From contig JAFGXR010000037.1 in NCBI GenBank assembly GCA_016936555.1, forward strand, positions 1-64,000: a stretch of DNA of 64,000 bases, written 5' to 3'. A model generated the notes under the pieces. It was not told the origin of the DNA, searched no databases, and saw only the letters and a list, made by a program, of their open reading frames with translations. This stretch comes from Spirochaetales bacterium. Lineage in GTDB: Bacteria; Spirochaetota; Spirochaetia; DSM-2461. The position numbers and the translations under genes were made by a program. This document shows, piece by piece, positions 45,630-61,495 of the stretch; position 1 is the stretch's first letter, and each line of letters begins with the position of its first letter.

Positions 45630-45746
45630 TCTGCTCCTCCCTAATACTGTAATAGTGCAGTTGAAAATTGAAAAGTCAAGTCATAACTTTTTTCTGGATA
45701 TGCTTCATTTCGGCGATTTGCTCTCCCTTATGGATCATAAAAGCTC

Positions 45747-45775
45747 TTGTTAAAAAAAAGTTAATACTTCATGAT
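45747..45775 (+). promoter_or_regulatory. Promoter of the PntC-like gene, leaderless type
   Basis: -35 TTGTTA (45747-45752), 17-bp spacer, -10 CATGAT (45770-45775), 6 nt, ATG 45782. No Shine-Dalgarno. Individually weak hexamers, but the spacing equals that at other leaderless starts here. Confidence 0.4.
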
Positions 45776-45781
45776 TGTTTC

Positions 45782-47602
45782 ATGCAAGCAATAATATTAG
45801 CCGCCGGAATGGGCAAAAGACTGAAGGGGCTCACCGCAGACAATACCAAATGCATGGTTAAGGTCAACGGAATTCCCATGATAGACCGAATGCTGGGAAG
45901 TCTGGAAAGACTCGAACTGGATCGTATCGTAATTGTTGTCGGTTATTGTGCCCGGGGCCTGATAAACCATATATCCGCACTTGATTTGAAGACTCCGGTT
46001 GTATATGTAGAAAATGAGATTTATGACAAAACCAACAATATCTATTCTCTCTATCTGGCTAAGGAGCATCTTCTGGCTGATGATACCATCCTACTCGAAT
46101 CGGATCTGATCTTCGAAGATGCTGTTCTCGAAAAAATACTGAATAATCCCTACTCAAGTCTGGCTCTTGTGGCTAAATACGAGAGCTGGATGGACGGTAC
46201 ATGCCTCACTGTAGATGATGATGACAATATCGTGTCCTTCCATAGCGGCGAGGATTTCCGGTTCAAGGATACAGGGCATTATTTTAAAACGGTTAATATT
46301 TACAAGTTCTCGAGAGAGTTCTCAACGTCTCATTACGTACCTTTTCTCAAGGCTTATAGCACAGCCCTCGGACAGAACGAATACTATGAACAGGTCCTTA
46401 AGGTCATTACGCTTCTTAAAAAGCCTGAAATTAAAGCTGTCCGGCTCGAAGAGGAAAAGTGGTATGAAATCGACAATGCCCAGGATCTGGATATTGCCGA
46501 GTCCATCTTTGCCGATACCCCCTCGGATAAACTGGCGAAGATGATGCGCCGTTACGGAGGTTACTGGCGCTATCCCCGACTCGCCGATTTCTGCTATCTT
46601 GTGAACCCCTATTTCCCCCCTGCGAAAATGGTCGATGAAATGCAGAGCAATTTTCACAGGCTTATGGAGAATTATCCTTCCGGTCAGAATGTCAACAGCC
46701 TGCTCGCAGCTGATTATTTCGGTGTTGATGAAGAAACCATCGTCGTCGGGAATGGAGCGGCCGAGCTGATCAAATCCCTGATGGAAAAGGAAGGGAGGGG
46801 AAAAACAGGTATTGTCTTCCCCACTTTTGAAGAGTATCCCAACAGATTGCCGGAGAGCGGGATCGTCCCTTATAAACCGGATAACAGAGATTTTACCTAT
46901 ACCGCTTCGGATCTGATCGCTTTTTATGATGGAAAAGATATCAGCTCCCTGCTCCTGATCAATCCTGACAATCCGACCGGAAATTTTATAGCGAGAGGGG
47001 AGATGGAACCGCTTCTGGACTGGTGTTCCGCCGGGAATATTCAGCTTATAGTCGATGAGTCGTTTCTCGATTTTGCCGAGGGAGCCATTGAGGAAAACTC
47101 GCTTCTTAAAACGGAACTCCTGGACAAACACAGGAATCTGGTCATTGTAAAAAGCATTTCCAAATCCTACGGTGTTCCGGGATTCCGGCTCGGGATTCTG
47201 GCCTCGGGAGATCGGCGGCTGATTGAGGAAATAAAAAAAGATGTGAGTATCTGGAATATCAACTCCTACGGGGAGTTTTTCATGCAGATAATCGGGAAAT
47301 ACAAGAGGGATTATGCCGCGGCGGCTCTTTATTTTAAAGAAGTCAGGGCTGGTTTTTTCGAAAGCCTGGGATCGATACCGGGAATCCGGCCCATAGCTTC
47401 ACAGGCCAATTATATCATGCTTGAGCTCACCGGCGGAATGAAAGCCGGGAAACTGGCGGAAGAACTGTTATGGAATCACAATCTTCTGATTAAGGATCTG
47501 ACTTCAAAAGTCGGCGGCAGAGGCGAGTATATCCGGATTGCCGTGAAGAGTGAGGAAGAAAACCGGAGACTGATCGAAGGGTTGGAGGATGTCCTGAAAT
47601 AA
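45782..47602 (+). CDS. PntC-like nucleotidyltransferase fused to a PLP aminotransferase
   Basis: About 606 residues from ATG 45782 (the longer frame to 45668 is AT-rich noncoding). N-terminal (1-240) LicC/PntC-type CTP transferase: AIILAAGMGKRLKGLTADNTKCMVKVNG near 3-30, with the acidic LLESDLIF near 102. The C-terminal part (about 255-600) is a fold-type-I aminotransferase resembling HisC/CobD: LLINPDNPTGNF near 393, KSISKSYGVPGFRLG near 457-471 with the PLP Lys. The same domain order is known from Treponema PntC, which makes CMP-aminoethylphosphonate. No phosphonate-forming PepM gene is in the window. It probably activates a choline-, ethanolamine- or aminoethylphosphonate-like headgroup for surface attachment. 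Confidence 0.82.
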   Translation: MQAIILAAGMGKRLKGLTADNTKCMVKVNGIPMIDRMLGSLERLELDRIVIVVGYCARGLINHISALDLKTPVVYVENEIYDKTNNIYSLYLAKEHLLADDTILLESDLIFEDAVLEKILNNPYSSLALVAKYESWMDGTCLTVDDDDNIVSFHSGEDFRFKDTGHYFKTVNIYKFSREFSTSHYVPFLKAYSTALGQNEYYEQVLKVITLLKKPEIKAVRLEEEKWYEIDNAQDLDIAESIFADTPSDKLAKMMRRYGGYWRYPRLADFCYLVNPYFPPAKMVDEMQSNFHRLMENYPSGQNVNSLLAADYFGVDEETIVVGNGAAELIKSLMEKEGRGKTGIVFPTFEEYPNRLPESGIVPYKPDNRDFTYTASDLIAFYDGKDISSLLLINPDNPTGNFIARGEMEPLLDWCSAGNIQLIVDESFLDFAEGAIEENSLLKTELLDKHRNLVIVKSISKSYGVPGFRLGILASGDRRLIEEIKKDVSIWNINSYGEFFMQIIGKYKRDYAAAALYFKEVRAGFFESLGSIPGIRPIASQANYIMLELTGGMKAGKLAEELLWNHNLLIKDLTSKVGGRGEYIRIAVKSEEENRRLIEGLEDVLK

Positions 47603-47632
47603 GGAGAGGCTGACTGTTTCCGGTCAGTCTCC
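47603..47632. terminator. Stem-loop between convergent genes
   Basis: GGAGA/TCTCC plus CTGAC/GTCAG arms (47603-47614 with 47623-47632), a 2-nt bulge and an 8-nt loop. It lies right after the PntC-like stop and includes the stop codon of the opposite gene (47624). Followed on the plus strand by ACTCTTTT. A probable terminator for the rightward gene. Confidence 0.5.
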
Positions 47633-50548
47633 CACTCTTTTCCAGTTGTTTATATCATAGAAATCCCCGTTGACCTGGAATACTCCGAAAGATTCATATT
47701 CCGGACCGGTTTGCTCCTTCGGGTTCCAGGCATGGGTCAATTGTCCCTCAACCACCCGTTTCGAATCCAGACTGTCTATCCAGGCTGACGCATCGGGATT
47801 AAAGGCTAACTGTGCCGTATCGGATGATGACATATTCTGTTCTTTCCTTTTGAGGGAACCTCTTCCGTTAAAATCTTTAACCATAAGCATTGAATTGAAA
47901 GCTGTGTGGTTTACCTTATCCAGACCCAGCGCCGACAGTCTGTCCTTATTTTTAACCGGTGCCGAGTAATCGGCGGATCTGTAATTCCCGTGATCGGAGA
48001 CGATTATGATTTTGGTATTGTCATAGAGACCTTTCTCTTTCAGATCCTTAAACCAATCCGCGAGAATCTTCAGGCTCCATTCCGTACTGTAGTAGGCGTT
48101 GCGGCCGTCCCTGTTGTCGCTGACCGAAGGATCGGGAAACCGGTCGGAGAGGAGAATCCCTTCAGCCGAGAGCGCATGGGGATGATGAGCTAAAAGACTT
48201 GTAATAAAGTAGTATTGTCCTCTGATGTCTGAAGCTATTGTCATCTCAGGCAGTTTGGTCAGCATAAGCCATTCGGGAAGCAGCTGTTTGAAGTAGCTTT
48301 GATAGACAAGAGCTCCTGAAAGAGGTCTCCAGAATCCGTCTTCGTAGACAAAGGATTTGAGTCCGTAGGGAACAGCCCGGAAGAGGGCAATAGCTTTGAG
48401 CAGTTTTTTGTTGATCGCGGTTTCATCTCCGACAGCGGCATCCTCTATATACGATTGTTCAAGGTTTCCCACATAATCATCGATTGAATGAACCGTAACG
48501 TCCAATTCTTTAAGTGAGGGCCATTTGTCCAGTAAGAATCCGAATTCGAAAGGCTCGACCAATGTCACGTCGAGATCAGCAGCCATGGCCTTTTCTATCA
48601 TCACATTATAGGCCCGTCCGATCTCTTCTATAACCGAATGCTCAAGGCTGCGGCGGTTGACTTCGGCCGGAGCGAATTCCGGTCCACCCATGATGGCCGG
48701 CTGGCCTGCTACCGTATTGGTGCCGACAGCCATGGTGTTGGGAAACCATGTAAACCCGTCAAAATCCTCTTCCAGCTCGGGAAAATCTTCCAGCAGTTCG
48801 AAAAGGTAACCTCCCGTCATCATATCCATCATAAAGACGACGACATTCTGTTCGCTTTCCGATAGAGGTACGGTCAGTTCCAGTTCCCCCGATGATAAAT
48901 CTGTAGCTGATCCCTTTTTGTTTTCATAGACCGGCGTTTTTGAGGCGGCCATTGCATGAAAGCCCTGTCCGATCAGAAGAATATTGAGACAGAGAAGCAT
49001 GGCGAATATCCCTTTTCTCCACCGTTCGGCGGCGGCTCTCATTATGGAAAAAAGAACTACAATGAGAGAAAAGTCCGCTATGTATGTAATTGCGTCACCC
49101 TGCAGAATTTCACTTTTAGACAAACTGAAACCGGTCAGAAACCCGAAATCGAAGGGGATGACGAATGCGTAGATAAAGACTCCGGAAGCGGCCGCTGTCA
49201 GGACCACCCAGGGAATAATACGCCAGCGGCCCGGTGTCAGGAGAGATAACACCGTTCCGCCTGCCACTATGATAAAGAAAGGGAGGAGATTTTCCATTAA
49301 CATCTCACCGGCGCTGAAACTGAATTGGCCGGGCAGAGAACTGTAAACCATCGCGGGAATCCAGAGCAGCCATGCGCCGGCAATAAGAATCAGGGAGAGA
49401 GTCATTTCCTCCCAACCGGATAAGGCTCCCTTCTTCTGAAAGGAGAACCCGTGACCCAGTTTTTTCGATTTCCATATGACAGACCGATAAATAAAGGGAA
49501 AGGTTAAAAGCAGTCCCAATCCCGTCTGGACTGTGAAAAGAGCTATCTGCCGCTTGAATACTCCGGCTGACGAGAGCTTTTCCAATCCGGTGCTTATATA
49601 GCCGGGAATGAAATTCAGACCCGAGACAGCCTGATAAATCAGGAAGATGAATAGTGCAGCGGCAACGGCCAGACGTCTTTTTCTTCCCCTACCTTTAGAG
49701 AAAACAAGTAAGAGCAGATGTATCACTTCCTGGAGGAAGAGAAGAATCATAACGACCGCGGGTAGTATTATTTTGGATCTGTGCGCGACAGCGGGGTAAA
49801 AGAGGCTGACAAAACTCAGATAGAATGCAAAGAGGGGTATGCAGTAGTACGCCCAGATCCCGATCAGGGGGAATATCTTTTTCATCCTGTTCCGGTCCGT
49901 TCCGTTAATATATGACGGCACTTCAGGAATCTGTTTGATCAGGGCGAATAGGTTGTTGGCGGTCCAGTAGAGAACAAGGCCGGCGGGAGACCGGTAGAGC
50001 AGTATCAGGAAAACGCCGGCCATAATCCAGAGGGGGATTCTTTCCGAAGTCTCCTTTGTATAAAGAAAAGCAGAAATGAGATTTAATCCTGTCATGACCA
50101 GCGGGAGAATATTTACGGGGATACCGGCCAGAATCAGCGAGCCGTCGGGAAGACTGAGGTTCTCGATAAACCAGAACGATACGCCGTTGAGCGCGCTGTA
50201 ATGGGACAGCATATGATAAGCCGCCAGGAAGAAGGGTATCTGTATCAGCAGGCCCAGCGACAGAATAACTGATTCGAGAGGCTTGTAATTATGTCTTCTG
50301 TGAACGGCATTTGTATAGAAATAACGTTCTCTTCCCCGGTATGCCCGTTTTATGGCTTCCAGCTCTTTCTTCATGGGAGCCTGTTCCATGGCTTTTTTCT
50401 TCTTCCACTTTTCCAGAGGAAGATAGACCGGCAGAAGAATGAGATTTACCATGACACTGAGAGCCAGTAGCGAGAGACCGTAATTCCCGGTTATTCCATA
50501 GGCTCCCGAGAAGAGAAAGGACAGAAAATTTTCCAGAGGCTTCAGCAT
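47624..50548 (-). CDS. YidC/Oxa1-like domain fused to a membrane phosphotransferase (alkaline-phosphatase fold)
   Basis: 974 residues. Residues about 1-215 look like the YidC/Oxa1 insertase core: GNYGLSLLALSVMVNLILLP near 22-41, a charged cytoplasmic hairpin rich in Lys and Glu, and GLVLYWTANNLFALIKQ near 190-206. Further membrane helices fill about 225-535. The C-terminal ~420 residues are of the EptA/LtaS/sulfatase type: metal Asp in VVFMMDMMTGG (about 572), VGTNTVAGQPAIMGG (about 607-620) with the likely nucleophile Thr as in EptA's GTATAxSxP, and IIIVSDHGNYRSADY (about 847-861). It probably transfers a phospho-headgroup outside the membrane. Coupled to the CDP-glycerol-transferase-like gene by an overlap. 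Confidence 0.75.
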   Translation of the reverse strand: MLKPLENFLSFLFSGAYGITGNYGLSLLALSVMVNLILLPVYLPLEKWKKKKAMEQAPMKKELEAIKRAYRGRERYFYTNAVHRRHNYKPLESVILSLGLLIQIPFFLAAYHMLSHYSALNGVSFWFIENLSLPDGSLILAGIPVNILPLVMTGLNLISAFLYTKETSERIPLWIMAGVFLILLYRSPAGLVLYWTANNLFALIKQIPEVPSYINGTDRNRMKKIFPLIGIWAYYCIPLFAFYLSFVSLFYPAVAHRSKIILPAVVMILLFLQEVIHLLLLVFSKGRGRKRRLAVAAALFIFLIYQAVSGLNFIPGYISTGLEKLSSAGVFKRQIALFTVQTGLGLLLTFPFIYRSVIWKSKKLGHGFSFQKKGALSGWEEMTLSLILIAGAWLLWIPAMVYSSLPGQFSFSAGEMLMENLLPFFIIVAGGTVLSLLTPGRWRIIPWVVLTAAASGVFIYAFVIPFDFGFLTGFSLSKSEILQGDAITYIADFSLIVVLFSIMRAAAERWRKGIFAMLLCLNILLIGQGFHAMAASKTPVYENKKGSATDLSSGELELTVPLSESEQNVVVFMMDMMTGGYLFELLEDFPELEEDFDGFTWFPNTMAVGTNTVAGQPAIMGGPEFAPAEVNRRSLEHSVIEEIGRAYNVMIEKAMAADLDVTLVEPFEFGFLLDKWPSLKELDVTVHSIDDYVGNLEQSYIEDAAVGDETAINKKLLKAIALFRAVPYGLKSFVYEDGFWRPLSGALVYQSYFKQLLPEWLMLTKLPEMTIASDIRGQYYFITSLLAHHPHALSAEGILLSDRFPDPSVSDNRDGRNAYYSTEWSLKILADWFKDLKEKGLYDNTKIIIVSDHGNYRSADYSAPVKNKDRLSALGLDKVNHTAFNSMLMVKDFNGRGSLKRKEQNMSSSDTAQLAFNPDASAWIDSLDSKRVVEGQLTHAWNPKEQTGPEYESFGVFQVNGDFYDINNWKRVGD

Positions 50549-51822
50549 TTCAGTTCCTCCGCGATGTCGAGCAGCTGTGCTGCCGCTGTTTCTCCGGCAT
50601 GGCCGAAATTGTACAGGGCTTCCCGGCGGATTTTTTCAATTTCACCTTTTCGGGGATTGTGGAGAAAGTCCCTGACGATGGAAGGGAGATGCGGAATATC
50701 ATCTTCGCTTATGGTCTTTCCCGCAGCCCGGCAAAGCGTTTTATCCCACATTTCATGGTCGAGATCCCAGGCTTCCATCCCGTCTCTGTTGAGGTCCGTA
50801 TCCATCAGTATGACCGGTTTCTCATAGAGGAACAGGTAGTCGTATATAACACCGGACAGATCGCTGATCATCAGACTGGATTCCCCCATGCTCTGTGATC
50901 CCGAAGGTCTGTCATCGAGAGCGAAGTTCTCATTATCTTTGAACTCATCCATAACCTCTTTCACCAGTTCGGGAAAGGATACGAAACTCTGGGGGTGGGG
51001 TCTGAAAATGACTTTGTAGTCATCGCTCAGAAGAGATTTGAAGAAATCTACGCCGAAGCGGTTGAGGATGGAATAGGGCTGCCAGGTCGGAGCCACCAGG
51101 ATGCTCGGTCTGCGGCCCGAACCGGGGGACACTGTCTCTGTTTCCCCCATCATGATATCGTAATAGGTCAATCCGGTTTCAAGCAGTTTTTTCGGTGCTG
51201 TGCCTCTCTTCTTTTCGGTTTCCCTGATGCTTTTGATCTGATAGGGTCCGCTGCATAAAACCGAATCGAAATAATCAAAGGCAAACTGCCGGTATGTATG
51301 GGTATCGGTCGGCGAATGGAGAATATGGGCGTAATGCCTGACATTCTTCGATCTCTTGAAGGTGAAAATATCGAGCTGGGGAGTTGTCGTTACGACAACC
51401 GGAGCCTTGAGCTGGTTCATAAATGCCAGAGCGCTGTTCATGCTCCCCAGCGCTTTGACTTCCAGAAAAGGAGAATTGTATGACAGAGCGGCATCAGCCG
51501 GATCAGCTGTAACATATGCGGATTTTATCTCCCTTTTTTCCAGTGCTTTTATGACGGGTAGGTATACATTCCAGTACTGTTTTCCTTCTGAGAAGAAAAC
51601 GATATCCGTTTTATCGAAGGATGTCTGAGTGGAAAATCCCCGGCCGGCCATCATATTTTTAAAGCGGTAGAAAAGCCCTGCAACGGAATAAAACAGAGTC
51701 GCGGCCAGGGCGAATAAAACATAAAGGATGGTACTGCCCGACATCGGGTCGATATAGGCGAATAGAGGCGATGGAATAACCATCAGCAAAGCCAGGTTGA
51801 AAAATATTCGTGATCGTTTCAT
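50542..51822 (-). CDS. CDP-glycerol glycerophosphotransferase-like protein
   Basis: About 426 residues from ATG 51822. An N-terminal signal/anchor (RIFFNLALLMVIPSPLFAYI) and a second helix (STILYVLFALAATLFYSVAGLFY) precede the soluble domain. The C-terminal region is TagB/TagF-like: SILVAPTWQPYSILNRFG near 238-255, VIFRPHPQSF near 270-279, and SLMISDLSGVIYDYLFLYEKPVI near 315-337. The family transfers glycerol-phosphate from CDP-glycerol onto lipid-linked or polymer acceptors. Its pairing with a PntC-like CTP transferase and an EptA/LtaS-like enzyme suggests phosphodiester decoration of a surface polymer. Confidence 0.82.
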   Translation of the reverse strand: MKRSRIFFNLALLMVIPSPLFAYIDPMSGSTILYVLFALAATLFYSVAGLFYRFKNMMAGRGFSTQTSFDKTDIVFFSEGKQYWNVYLPVIKALEKREIKSAYVTADPADAALSYNSPFLEVKALGSMNSALAFMNQLKAPVVVTTTPQLDIFTFKRSKNVRHYAHILHSPTDTHTYRQFAFDYFDSVLCSGPYQIKSIRETEKKRGTAPKKLLETGLTYYDIMMGETETVSPGSGRRPSILVAPTWQPYSILNRFGVDFFKSLLSDDYKVIFRPHPQSFVSFPELVKEVMDEFKDNENFALDDRPSGSQSMGESSLMISDLSGVIYDYLFLYEKPVILMDTDLNRDGMEAWDLDHEMWDKTLCRAAGKTISEDDIPHLPSIVRDFLHNPRKGEIEKIRREALYNFGHAGETAAAQLLDIAEELKC

Positions 51823-51924
51823 TAATCGTTCTTTAACCTTAAATAAAATGATTATTTGATGTTTAAGATAAAGATACATCGGGTCCAGCCATCATTACAA
51901 CTGCATAAGGACGGATAGGCCGTT

Positions 51925-60511: not shown

Positions 60512-61495
60512 ATGTACAGATTATTTCATCCCCATGTCTATCAGGGCCCGCTGAATTTCAAGCATCGTAAAGGGTATTTTGAAGGTTGGTATTATAAATT
60601 CGTAACGAAAGAAAACCGCTCTCTGGCTTTTATCCCCGGTATTTCACTGGGAAAAGATGAATCCAGAGCCTTTATACAGATCATTGATGGAAAGGACGGT
60701 TCGACGGAATACATCAATTTTCCTCTCGATCAACTGGAATTGGGCTACAGACCTTTTTCCGTAACAATCGGCGGAAATCGTTTTTCCCTGACCGGCGTGG
60801 AGCTCTCAGACACTTTCCCTTTCAAGGGGCAAATCGCCATAAAGGAACCCTCTCTGTATCCCGTCAGCTTTTTCCGTCCGGGCATTATGGGGTGGTACCG
60901 CTATGTCCCCTTTATGGAGTGTTATCACGGCGTCGTCAGTACGGGACACAAACTTTCGGGCACACTGATGAAAGACGGCGAAACCATCGATCTGGAGGGA
61001 GGGTCCGGCTATATCGAAAAGGACTGGGGAACCTCCTTTCCCTCTTCCTATATCTGGATGCAGACCAACAGTTTTGCCAGACCCCGAACTTCCTTTATGC
61101 TTTCGCTCGCGAGGATACCCTGGTTCGGCTCGTGGTTCCGCGGTTTCCTCGGCTATCTGGTTCTGGAGGGAGAACTGATCACCTTTTCAACCTATACGGG
61201 AGCCCGTACGGTTGTTCGGGAGATCGGGATTGACCGGGTTTCAATGACAATTCATGGAAAAGGCCGCGGTAGAAAGGGATCTCTGAAAAAAGGGGAAGTC
61301 ATTGAGTTATCCGCTTCGAGAAAGATCGCCGGAGAATTGAAGGCTCCGGTCACAGGCTCCATGGACAGACGGATCAGCGAGAGCATCGACGGCAGGATCC
61401 ATGTGAAGTTCTTCCGGAAGGATTCGCTCCTTTTCGAAGAGGAATCGCCCTGCAGCGGACTTGAGATTGTCGGCGACCGGAAAGAACTCCTTTAG
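60512..61495 (+). CDS. Tocopherol-cyclase-family protein
   Basis: 327 residues. Opening HPHVYQGPLNFKHRKGYFEGWYYKFVTK is characteristic of the tocopherol cyclase-like family, as is GGSGYIEKDWGTSFPSSYIWMQ near 167-188. No signal peptide. Plant members cyclise tocopherol precursors; bacterial members mostly have unknown function and no tocopherol pathway is evident here. Starts 8 nt after the dapE-like stop and may be read with that operon. Its stop overlaps the convergent FHA gene by 4 nt. Confidence 0.8.
   Translation: MYRLFHPHVYQGPLNFKHRKGYFEGWYYKFVTKENRSLAFIPGISLGKDESRAFIQIIDGKDGSTEYINFPLDQLELGYRPFSVTIGGNRFSLTGVELSDTFPFKGQIAIKEPSLYPVSFFRPGIMGWYRYVPFMECYHGVVSTGHKLSGTLMKDGETIDLEGGSGYIEKDWGTSFPSSYIWMQTNSFARPRTSFMLSLARIPWFGSWFRGFLGYLVLEGELITFSTYTGARTVVREIGIDRVSMTIHGKGRGRKGSLKKGEVIELSASRKIAGELKAPVTGSMDRRISESIDGRIHVKFFRKDSLLFEEESPCSGLEIVGDRKELL

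Follow-up and report, generated by a model that had tools for sequence, protein, structure and literature searches.

A widespread fusion of a YidC-like domain with an alkaline phosphatase-superfamily domain, which probably attaches small phosphorus-containing groups to bacterial surfaces

What would a domain resembling the insertase YidC be doing on an enzyme resembling those that transfer lipid headgroups? The question is raised by a gene in the window (the whole 64,000 nt stretch of Spirochaetales DNA that was analysed), which an earlier note, made from the sequence alone, had read as a fusion of two kinds of protein not normally joined. On the minus strand this gene runs for 974 codons from its ATG with no internal stops, whilst the plus strand across the same interval is stop-rich. 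Counterparts from two congeneric genomes are likewise single frames of 974 aa that align with the fusion over their whole length at 62-63% identity, and other relatives supply more than 100 additional fused frames. A frameshift or assembly artefact joining two genes, raised earlier as something that might undo the reading, is ruled out by these intact full-length frames.

An AlphaFold2 model of the fusion, built from 103 relatives, has a mean pLDDT of 82. It divides the protein into a YidC core, four helices of low confidence, and then a five-helix membrane domain and an alkaline phosphatase-superfamily (AP) fold, both of which are modelled confidently (Table 1); the domain borders in the middle segment are of low confidence. 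Across relatives, the linker between the YidC-like and AP parts varies from 196 to 461 aa. A shorter relative from Treponema putidum gave a better model (pLDDT 91.6, pTM 0.88), in which there are two extra helices. As the number of extra helices is even in both layouts, we infer from the models that the AP domain lies outside the cell in each case. Foldseek searches matched the model of the fusion to PbgA, LtaS, MCR-1 and E. coli YidC, and that of the T. putidum protein to B. halodurans YidC (TM 0.72), EptA, MCR-1 and PbgA.

Table 1. Positions in the window of the fusion gene, its parts and its neighbours.
Feature	Position	Strand	Basis or remark
Fusion gene: YidC-like domain, membrane helices and AP domain	47624..50548	-	974 aa
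YidC/Oxa1-like domain, residues 1-213	49910..50548	-	Pfam PF02096; fold match to E. coli YidC 6al2
N35, position of the insertase groove Arg/Lys (E. coli R366)	50444..50446	-	Alignment to B. halodurans YidC 3wo6
Variable membrane segment, residues 219-358, four predicted helices	49475..49894	-	Model, low confidence
Conserved five-helix membrane domain, residues 379-535	48944..49414	-	Model; positioned as in EptA, PbgA and MCR-1
Predicted extracytoplasmic AP-superfamily domain, residues 556-974	47627..48883	-	Family profile, model and fold search
T612, candidate catalytic nucleophile (second Thr of GTNT...P)	48713..48715	-	Invariant, 103/103
D852-H853, metal-ligand motif (SDHG)	47990..47995	-	Invariant, 103/103
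Putative membrane-anchored TagF-like CDP-alcohol phosphotransferase	50542..51879	-	PF04464; upstream of the fusion
MobA-like nucleotidyltransferase fused to CobD/HisC-like PLP enzyme, convergent	45668..47602	+	Probable true start ATG 45782
Terminator-like hairpin between the convergent genes, 11 pairs	47606..47631	+	Consensus scan only

The likeness to YidC that had been noticed in roughly the first 215 residues is borne out by profile searches, residues 23-207 matching Pfam 60KD_IMP (PF02096) with E=2.8e-21 and 76.6 bits, against a cut-off of 35; the fusion also scores 85.6 bits with TIGR03592 (yidC_oxa1_cterm; cut-off 84.3). In structure, its model aligns with E. coli YidC (6al2_B) over 207 columns at 25% identity (rmsd 3.8), and that of the T. 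putidum relative with B. halodurans YidC (3wo7; TMt 0.72, rmsd 3.1). However, the groove differs from that of the insertase. Where insertases have the groove Arg/Lys, all 126 fusion-type or split domains lack a charged residue, most having N, T or S and two a gap, whereas 33 of the 36 canonical YidCs in the comparison set have K or R. T153, N156, N198, N199 and K205 are nearly fixed in the fusion-type subfamily and mostly different or variable in canonical YidC; W195 is invariant in the fusion-type domains (126/126) and occurs in most canonical copies too. A single branch with an SH-aLRT value of 100 separates canonical from fusion-type sequences in a tree of 162 domains, and by these sequence comparisons the YidC part of the fusion is a distinct subfamily of the Oxa1 superfamily. 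Three canonical YidCs from Lachnospiraceae (L141, L142 and L143) have N or Y in place of the groove Arg/Lys, which is called strictly conserved in the literature. Each of the 15 fusion-bearing genomes examined encodes a separate canonical YidC, as does the genome of the window itself, ruling out that the fusion is the sole YidC in these 16 genomes.

One explanation would leave the domain an insertase: it could serve as a built-in insertase or chaperone for the helices of its own transferase, or for the anchor of the TagF-like protein described below, with lipids untouched. Its profile and fold are clearly those of YidC, and an E. coli YidC with R366N can still make up for YidC depletion when residue 517 is Trp, R73 of S. 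mutans YidC2 being essential with W234 (PMC8920935); in the fusion-type domains, too, a Trp (W195) is invariant. Because insertase function can survive the loss of this Arg by itself (PMC8920935), the loss of groove charge is only suggestive of lost insertase function. However, that charge has gone from every member whilst new neutral polar residues have become fixed, a canonical YidC is present in every genome checked, and known EptA- and LtaS-type transferases function with no insertase of their own. We consider a built-in insertase unlikely. YidC and other Oxa1-family insertases are able to scramble lipids in vitro, according to simulations via the same groove (PMC10491306). To judge from its residues, the YidC-like domain of the fusion may handle lipids, a reading that we place somewhat short of even odds. 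More tentatively still, we suggest that this Oxa1 subfamily may have given up protein insertion and may ferry phospho- or phosphono-headgroups, linked to a lipid, through the membrane to the transferase with which it is fused.

The gene immediately upstream points to what such a headgroup might be made by. Its product matches PF04464 (Glyphos_transf; E=3.8e-8, 33.1 bits, cut-off 22.1), its stop codon overlaps the start of the fusion (ATGCTGA), and the window's genome has no other PF04464 gene. When its profile was compared with solved structures, Cps3D, TagF and TarL were matched. These TagF-like partners are short, single-domain proteins with an N-terminal membrane segment and conserved RPHPQ and SDxSG stretches; at the membrane segment they also have an invariant Y-[IL]-DP, mostly within YIDPGTGS. 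To our knowledge, TagF homologues with known function use polymers or lipid-linked sugars as acceptors, never simple lipids. Strong matches to the TagF subfamily (E<1e-100) occur in exactly the same 10 of 61 genomes as fused or split YidC/AP genes (Fisher p ~1e-11, uncorrected for kinship). A TagF-like gene lies within three ORFs of the fusion in 74 of 96 loci, and is directly adjacent in 61; the 22 loci without one include some on short contigs.

On the other side of the fusion is a convergent gene whose product, a nucleotidyltransferase joined to a CobD/HisC-like enzyme, is likely to make a CDP-activated amino-alcohol phosphate. Such a protein could by itself convert phosphoserine or phosphothreonine to a CDP-amino-alcohol. 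A terminator-like hairpin separates the two genes (Table 1), and a promoter scan performed no better than on shuffled sequences. Amongst 93 loci, 44 have a gene for a maker of a CDP- or CMP-activated group (CDP/CMP-X) or a nucleotidyltransferase of such a type, and about half have no CDP-X gene within the stretch examined; the stretches behind these counts and the TagF counts above are of unequal length, and the relatives partly redundant. Four gene types are represented: nucleotidyltransferase-CobD-like, PepM-cytidylyltransferase, PepM-MobA-type and LicC-LicA. The first accounts for about 21 loci, including the window, PepM-nucleotidyltransferase fusions for about 14 and LicC-LicA for four. 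Ppd and an iron-dependent alcohol dehydrogenase are encoded in several of the PepM clusters as well, a combination that presumably leads to 2-hydroxyethylphosphonate. In the window's genome, the best match to PepM scores 20 bits, below the cut-off of 31.5, and a phosphonate headgroup is rejected there on this basis. Since a CobD-like fusion adjoins and PepM is absent above the cut-off, the headgroup in this genome, a guess from the CobD-like gene, is most likely to be phosphoethanolamine or aminopropanol phosphate. Elsewhere in the window (60512-61495, plus strand) is a match to Tocopherol_cycl (PF14249, E=2.7e-15), which is unexpected for a spirochaete.

The other half of the fusion would be the outer enzyme. 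Taken by its own sequence, the C-terminus is weakly sulfatase-like, its matches to Sulfatase (E=0.004) and Phosphodiest (E=8.5e-5) both falling under the cut-offs; with PF00884 (Sulfatase) it reaches 17 of the 25 bits needed, whilst several relatives pass (one, for example, with 39.8 bits). The sulfatase check proposed earlier is thus answered not by the protein's own matches but by the family profile and the fold. A profile of 16 relatives matched sulfatases, LtaP, LtaS and the nucleophile stretch of MCR-1 amongst solved structures, and the structural matches to PbgA, MCR-1 and EptA span 600-690 columns; a viral structure library gave sulfatase-like matches only. Family profile and predicted fold agree with the earlier assignment of an AP-fold metal site to the last 420 or so residues. 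Within the GTxT..xxP nucleophile motif named with it, the second Thr (T612), the candidate nucleophile, is invariant across the 103 relatives and the first is not conserved. D575 of the metal site is invariant too, and H788 is found in 102 of 103 relatives. The active-site residues of the AP domain are intact; catalysis itself is predicted.

Taken together, a CDP-X maker, a TagF-like enzyme and an outer transferase are fairly likely to form one module. The same parts could be arranged as an LtaS-like polymerase, with the TagF-like enzyme providing a primer or chain inside, the outer domain extending or ligating a poly-alcohol-phosphate and the YidC-like part acting as a channel or dock. Of the solved structures, the polymerases TagF, TarL and Cps3D come closest to the partner, LtaS and LtaP are among those closest to the outer domain, and tandem paralogues could build a chain plus branches. 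Yet the neighbouring CDP-X genes would give ethanolamine-, choline- or phosphonate-type groups, which are usually chain ends or decorations, and the TagF-like protein is short and single-domain, making a polymerase improbable.

Alternatively, the outer domain may be a hydrolase that strips off or recycles such groups, whether as phosphodiesterase, phosphonate hydrolase or sulfatase, given that sulfatases and phosphonate monoester hydrolases score equally with LtaS in fold and profile searches. This is very doubtful, for the nucleophile is Thr in 103 of 103 relatives rather than the Cys or Ser that sulfatases convert to formylglycine, the preceding five-helix membrane domain is as in EptA and MCR-1, and the linkage is to biosynthetic genes.

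Fused or split YidC/AP genes are present in nine of 60 relatives of the window's genome. A genome-wide scan found at least 79 loci in at least seven phyla: at least 45 in Spirochaetota, 26 in Bacillota, three in Pseudomonadota, two in Bacteroidota, and one each in Verrucomicrobiota, Thermodesulfobacteriota and Actinomycetota. All of these counts are lower bounds. The search patterns fell in the YidC part, and the scan covered relatives having that part. The joining of insertase-like and headgroup transferase domains, presented in the earlier note as abnormal, is therefore characteristic of a widespread family and not an isolated oddity. Most loci have one to four fused copies. One Ruminococcaceae genome (YRB3002; G073, locus L125) has ten further YidC-family matches, fusion-type or partial, beside one canonical YidC. 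A search for plasmid carriage returned 30 matching plasmid records, none covering more than 80% of the query; those listed match the YidC part only and resemble ordinary YidC, and on these records carriage of the fusion on plasmids was rejected.

Three loci (L053, L068 and L113) encode the halves in separate genes, which are neighbours and keep the YidC-then-AP order, and in L043 the halves are separate within one cluster. In the T. putidum locus (L053:7136-8786, plus strand), genes for YidC alone, for AP alone and for the fusion alternate, and one of the AP genes is apparently split in two. Two further loci (L042:6285-8837, minus strand, and L073:5894-8341, plus strand) have a fusion-type YidC joined to another AP subfamily, the two AP parts being 30% identical to each other and unmatched by the family profile; both loci keep the same set of YidC, TagF and PepM, and their outer domain has apparently been exchanged. 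The recurring association, whether in fusions, split neighbours or with an apparently swapped AP domain, suggests that the halves work together. Chance fusion or an assembly artefact joining functionally unlinked halves, for which only the rarity of such fusions speaks, can practically be dismissed in view of full-length conservation in more than 100 proteins and at least seven phyla, split pairs that stay neighbours and the pairing of this YidC type with a second AP subfamily.

What the fusion encodes, then, is probably an enzyme for adding small phosphorus-containing groups to the surface of the bacterium, an activity predicted from sequence. Its substrates, the direction of transfer, the lipid-moving role and each chemical step are set out here as a proposal. 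In the cytoplasm, a neighbouring enzyme would make a small phospho- or phosphono-alcohol activated with CDP or CMP; for the window, the nucleotidyltransferase-CobD-like fusion would most likely yield CDP-ethanolamine or CDP-aminopropanol. On the cytoplasmic side of the membrane, the anchored TagF-like enzyme would pass the phospho-group from the nucleotide to a lipid acceptor, giving a lipid phosphodiester. The YidC-like domain would no longer be a general insertase and would use its polar, uncharged groove to carry the lipid headgroup or present it outside. Finally, the AP domain would load the phospho-group on T612 and pass it on to an acceptor such as a surface glycan, in the manner of EptA and LtaS, members of the AP superfamily whose donors are lipid phosphodiesters. 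We give the whole two-part surface-tailoring mechanism a probability of roughly 40%. The lipid- or polymer-handling platform imagined earlier for the YidC part is partly supported by the loss of groove charge, the separate YidC and the linkage to TagF-like and CDP-X genes.

No description of a YidC/headgroup-transferase fusion was found in searches of the open-licence literature. Members of the family exceed the cut-off of the NCBI YidC domain model, and hence risk being annotated as insertases, in contrast to their conserved partners, which are surface-polymer genes. If the mechanism is true, it offers a specific candidate for the route by which CMP-phosphonates and CDP-alcohols are delivered to surface glycans, and would supply the missing transfer step in many pathways that decorate surfaces with phosphonates, phosphocholine or phosphoethanolamine. 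It would also be a natural case in which lipid scrambling by the Oxa1 family, seen so far in vitro and in simulations (PMC10491306), is a protein's purpose.

Each part of the module resembles a known system and departs from it. With the YidC/Oxa1 insertases (3wo7, 6al2) the fusion shares the five-helix core with a cytoplasmic hairpin, in sequence as well as fold; however, the fusion-type domain lacks the groove Arg or Lys, has the neutral polar residues T153, N156 and N198 fixed, and is joined to or adjoins a transferase in genomes that, where checked, also have canonical YidC. LtaS and LtaP, EptA, MCR-1 and PbgA/YejM have the same combination of a five-helix membrane domain and an outer AP fold, with a Thr nucleophile and an Asp-His metal motif. 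To this the fusion adds the N-terminal YidC-like domain and two to four extra helices; its first metal ligand is Asp, whilst that of LtaS and EptA is Glu, it has an invariant Lys891, and its identity to the solved relatives is only about 10-14%.

The partner gene matches the catalytic region of TagF, TarL and Cps3D (PF04464). Unlike these, it is short, with the invariant Y-[IL]-DP at its N-terminal membrane segment, and amongst the 61 genomes strong matches to its subfamily never occur without a YidC/AP gene. Finally, as in the Pnt and Lic pathways (PepM, PntC, LicA, LicC, LicD), neighbouring genes of the family make nucleotide-activated phosphonate or phosphocholine, and the later steps of phosphonyl tailoring by Pnt have been described as enigmatic (PMC6697681). 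Where those pathways would have a LicD-type transferase, the module described here has a TagF-like gene and the YidC/AP fusion.
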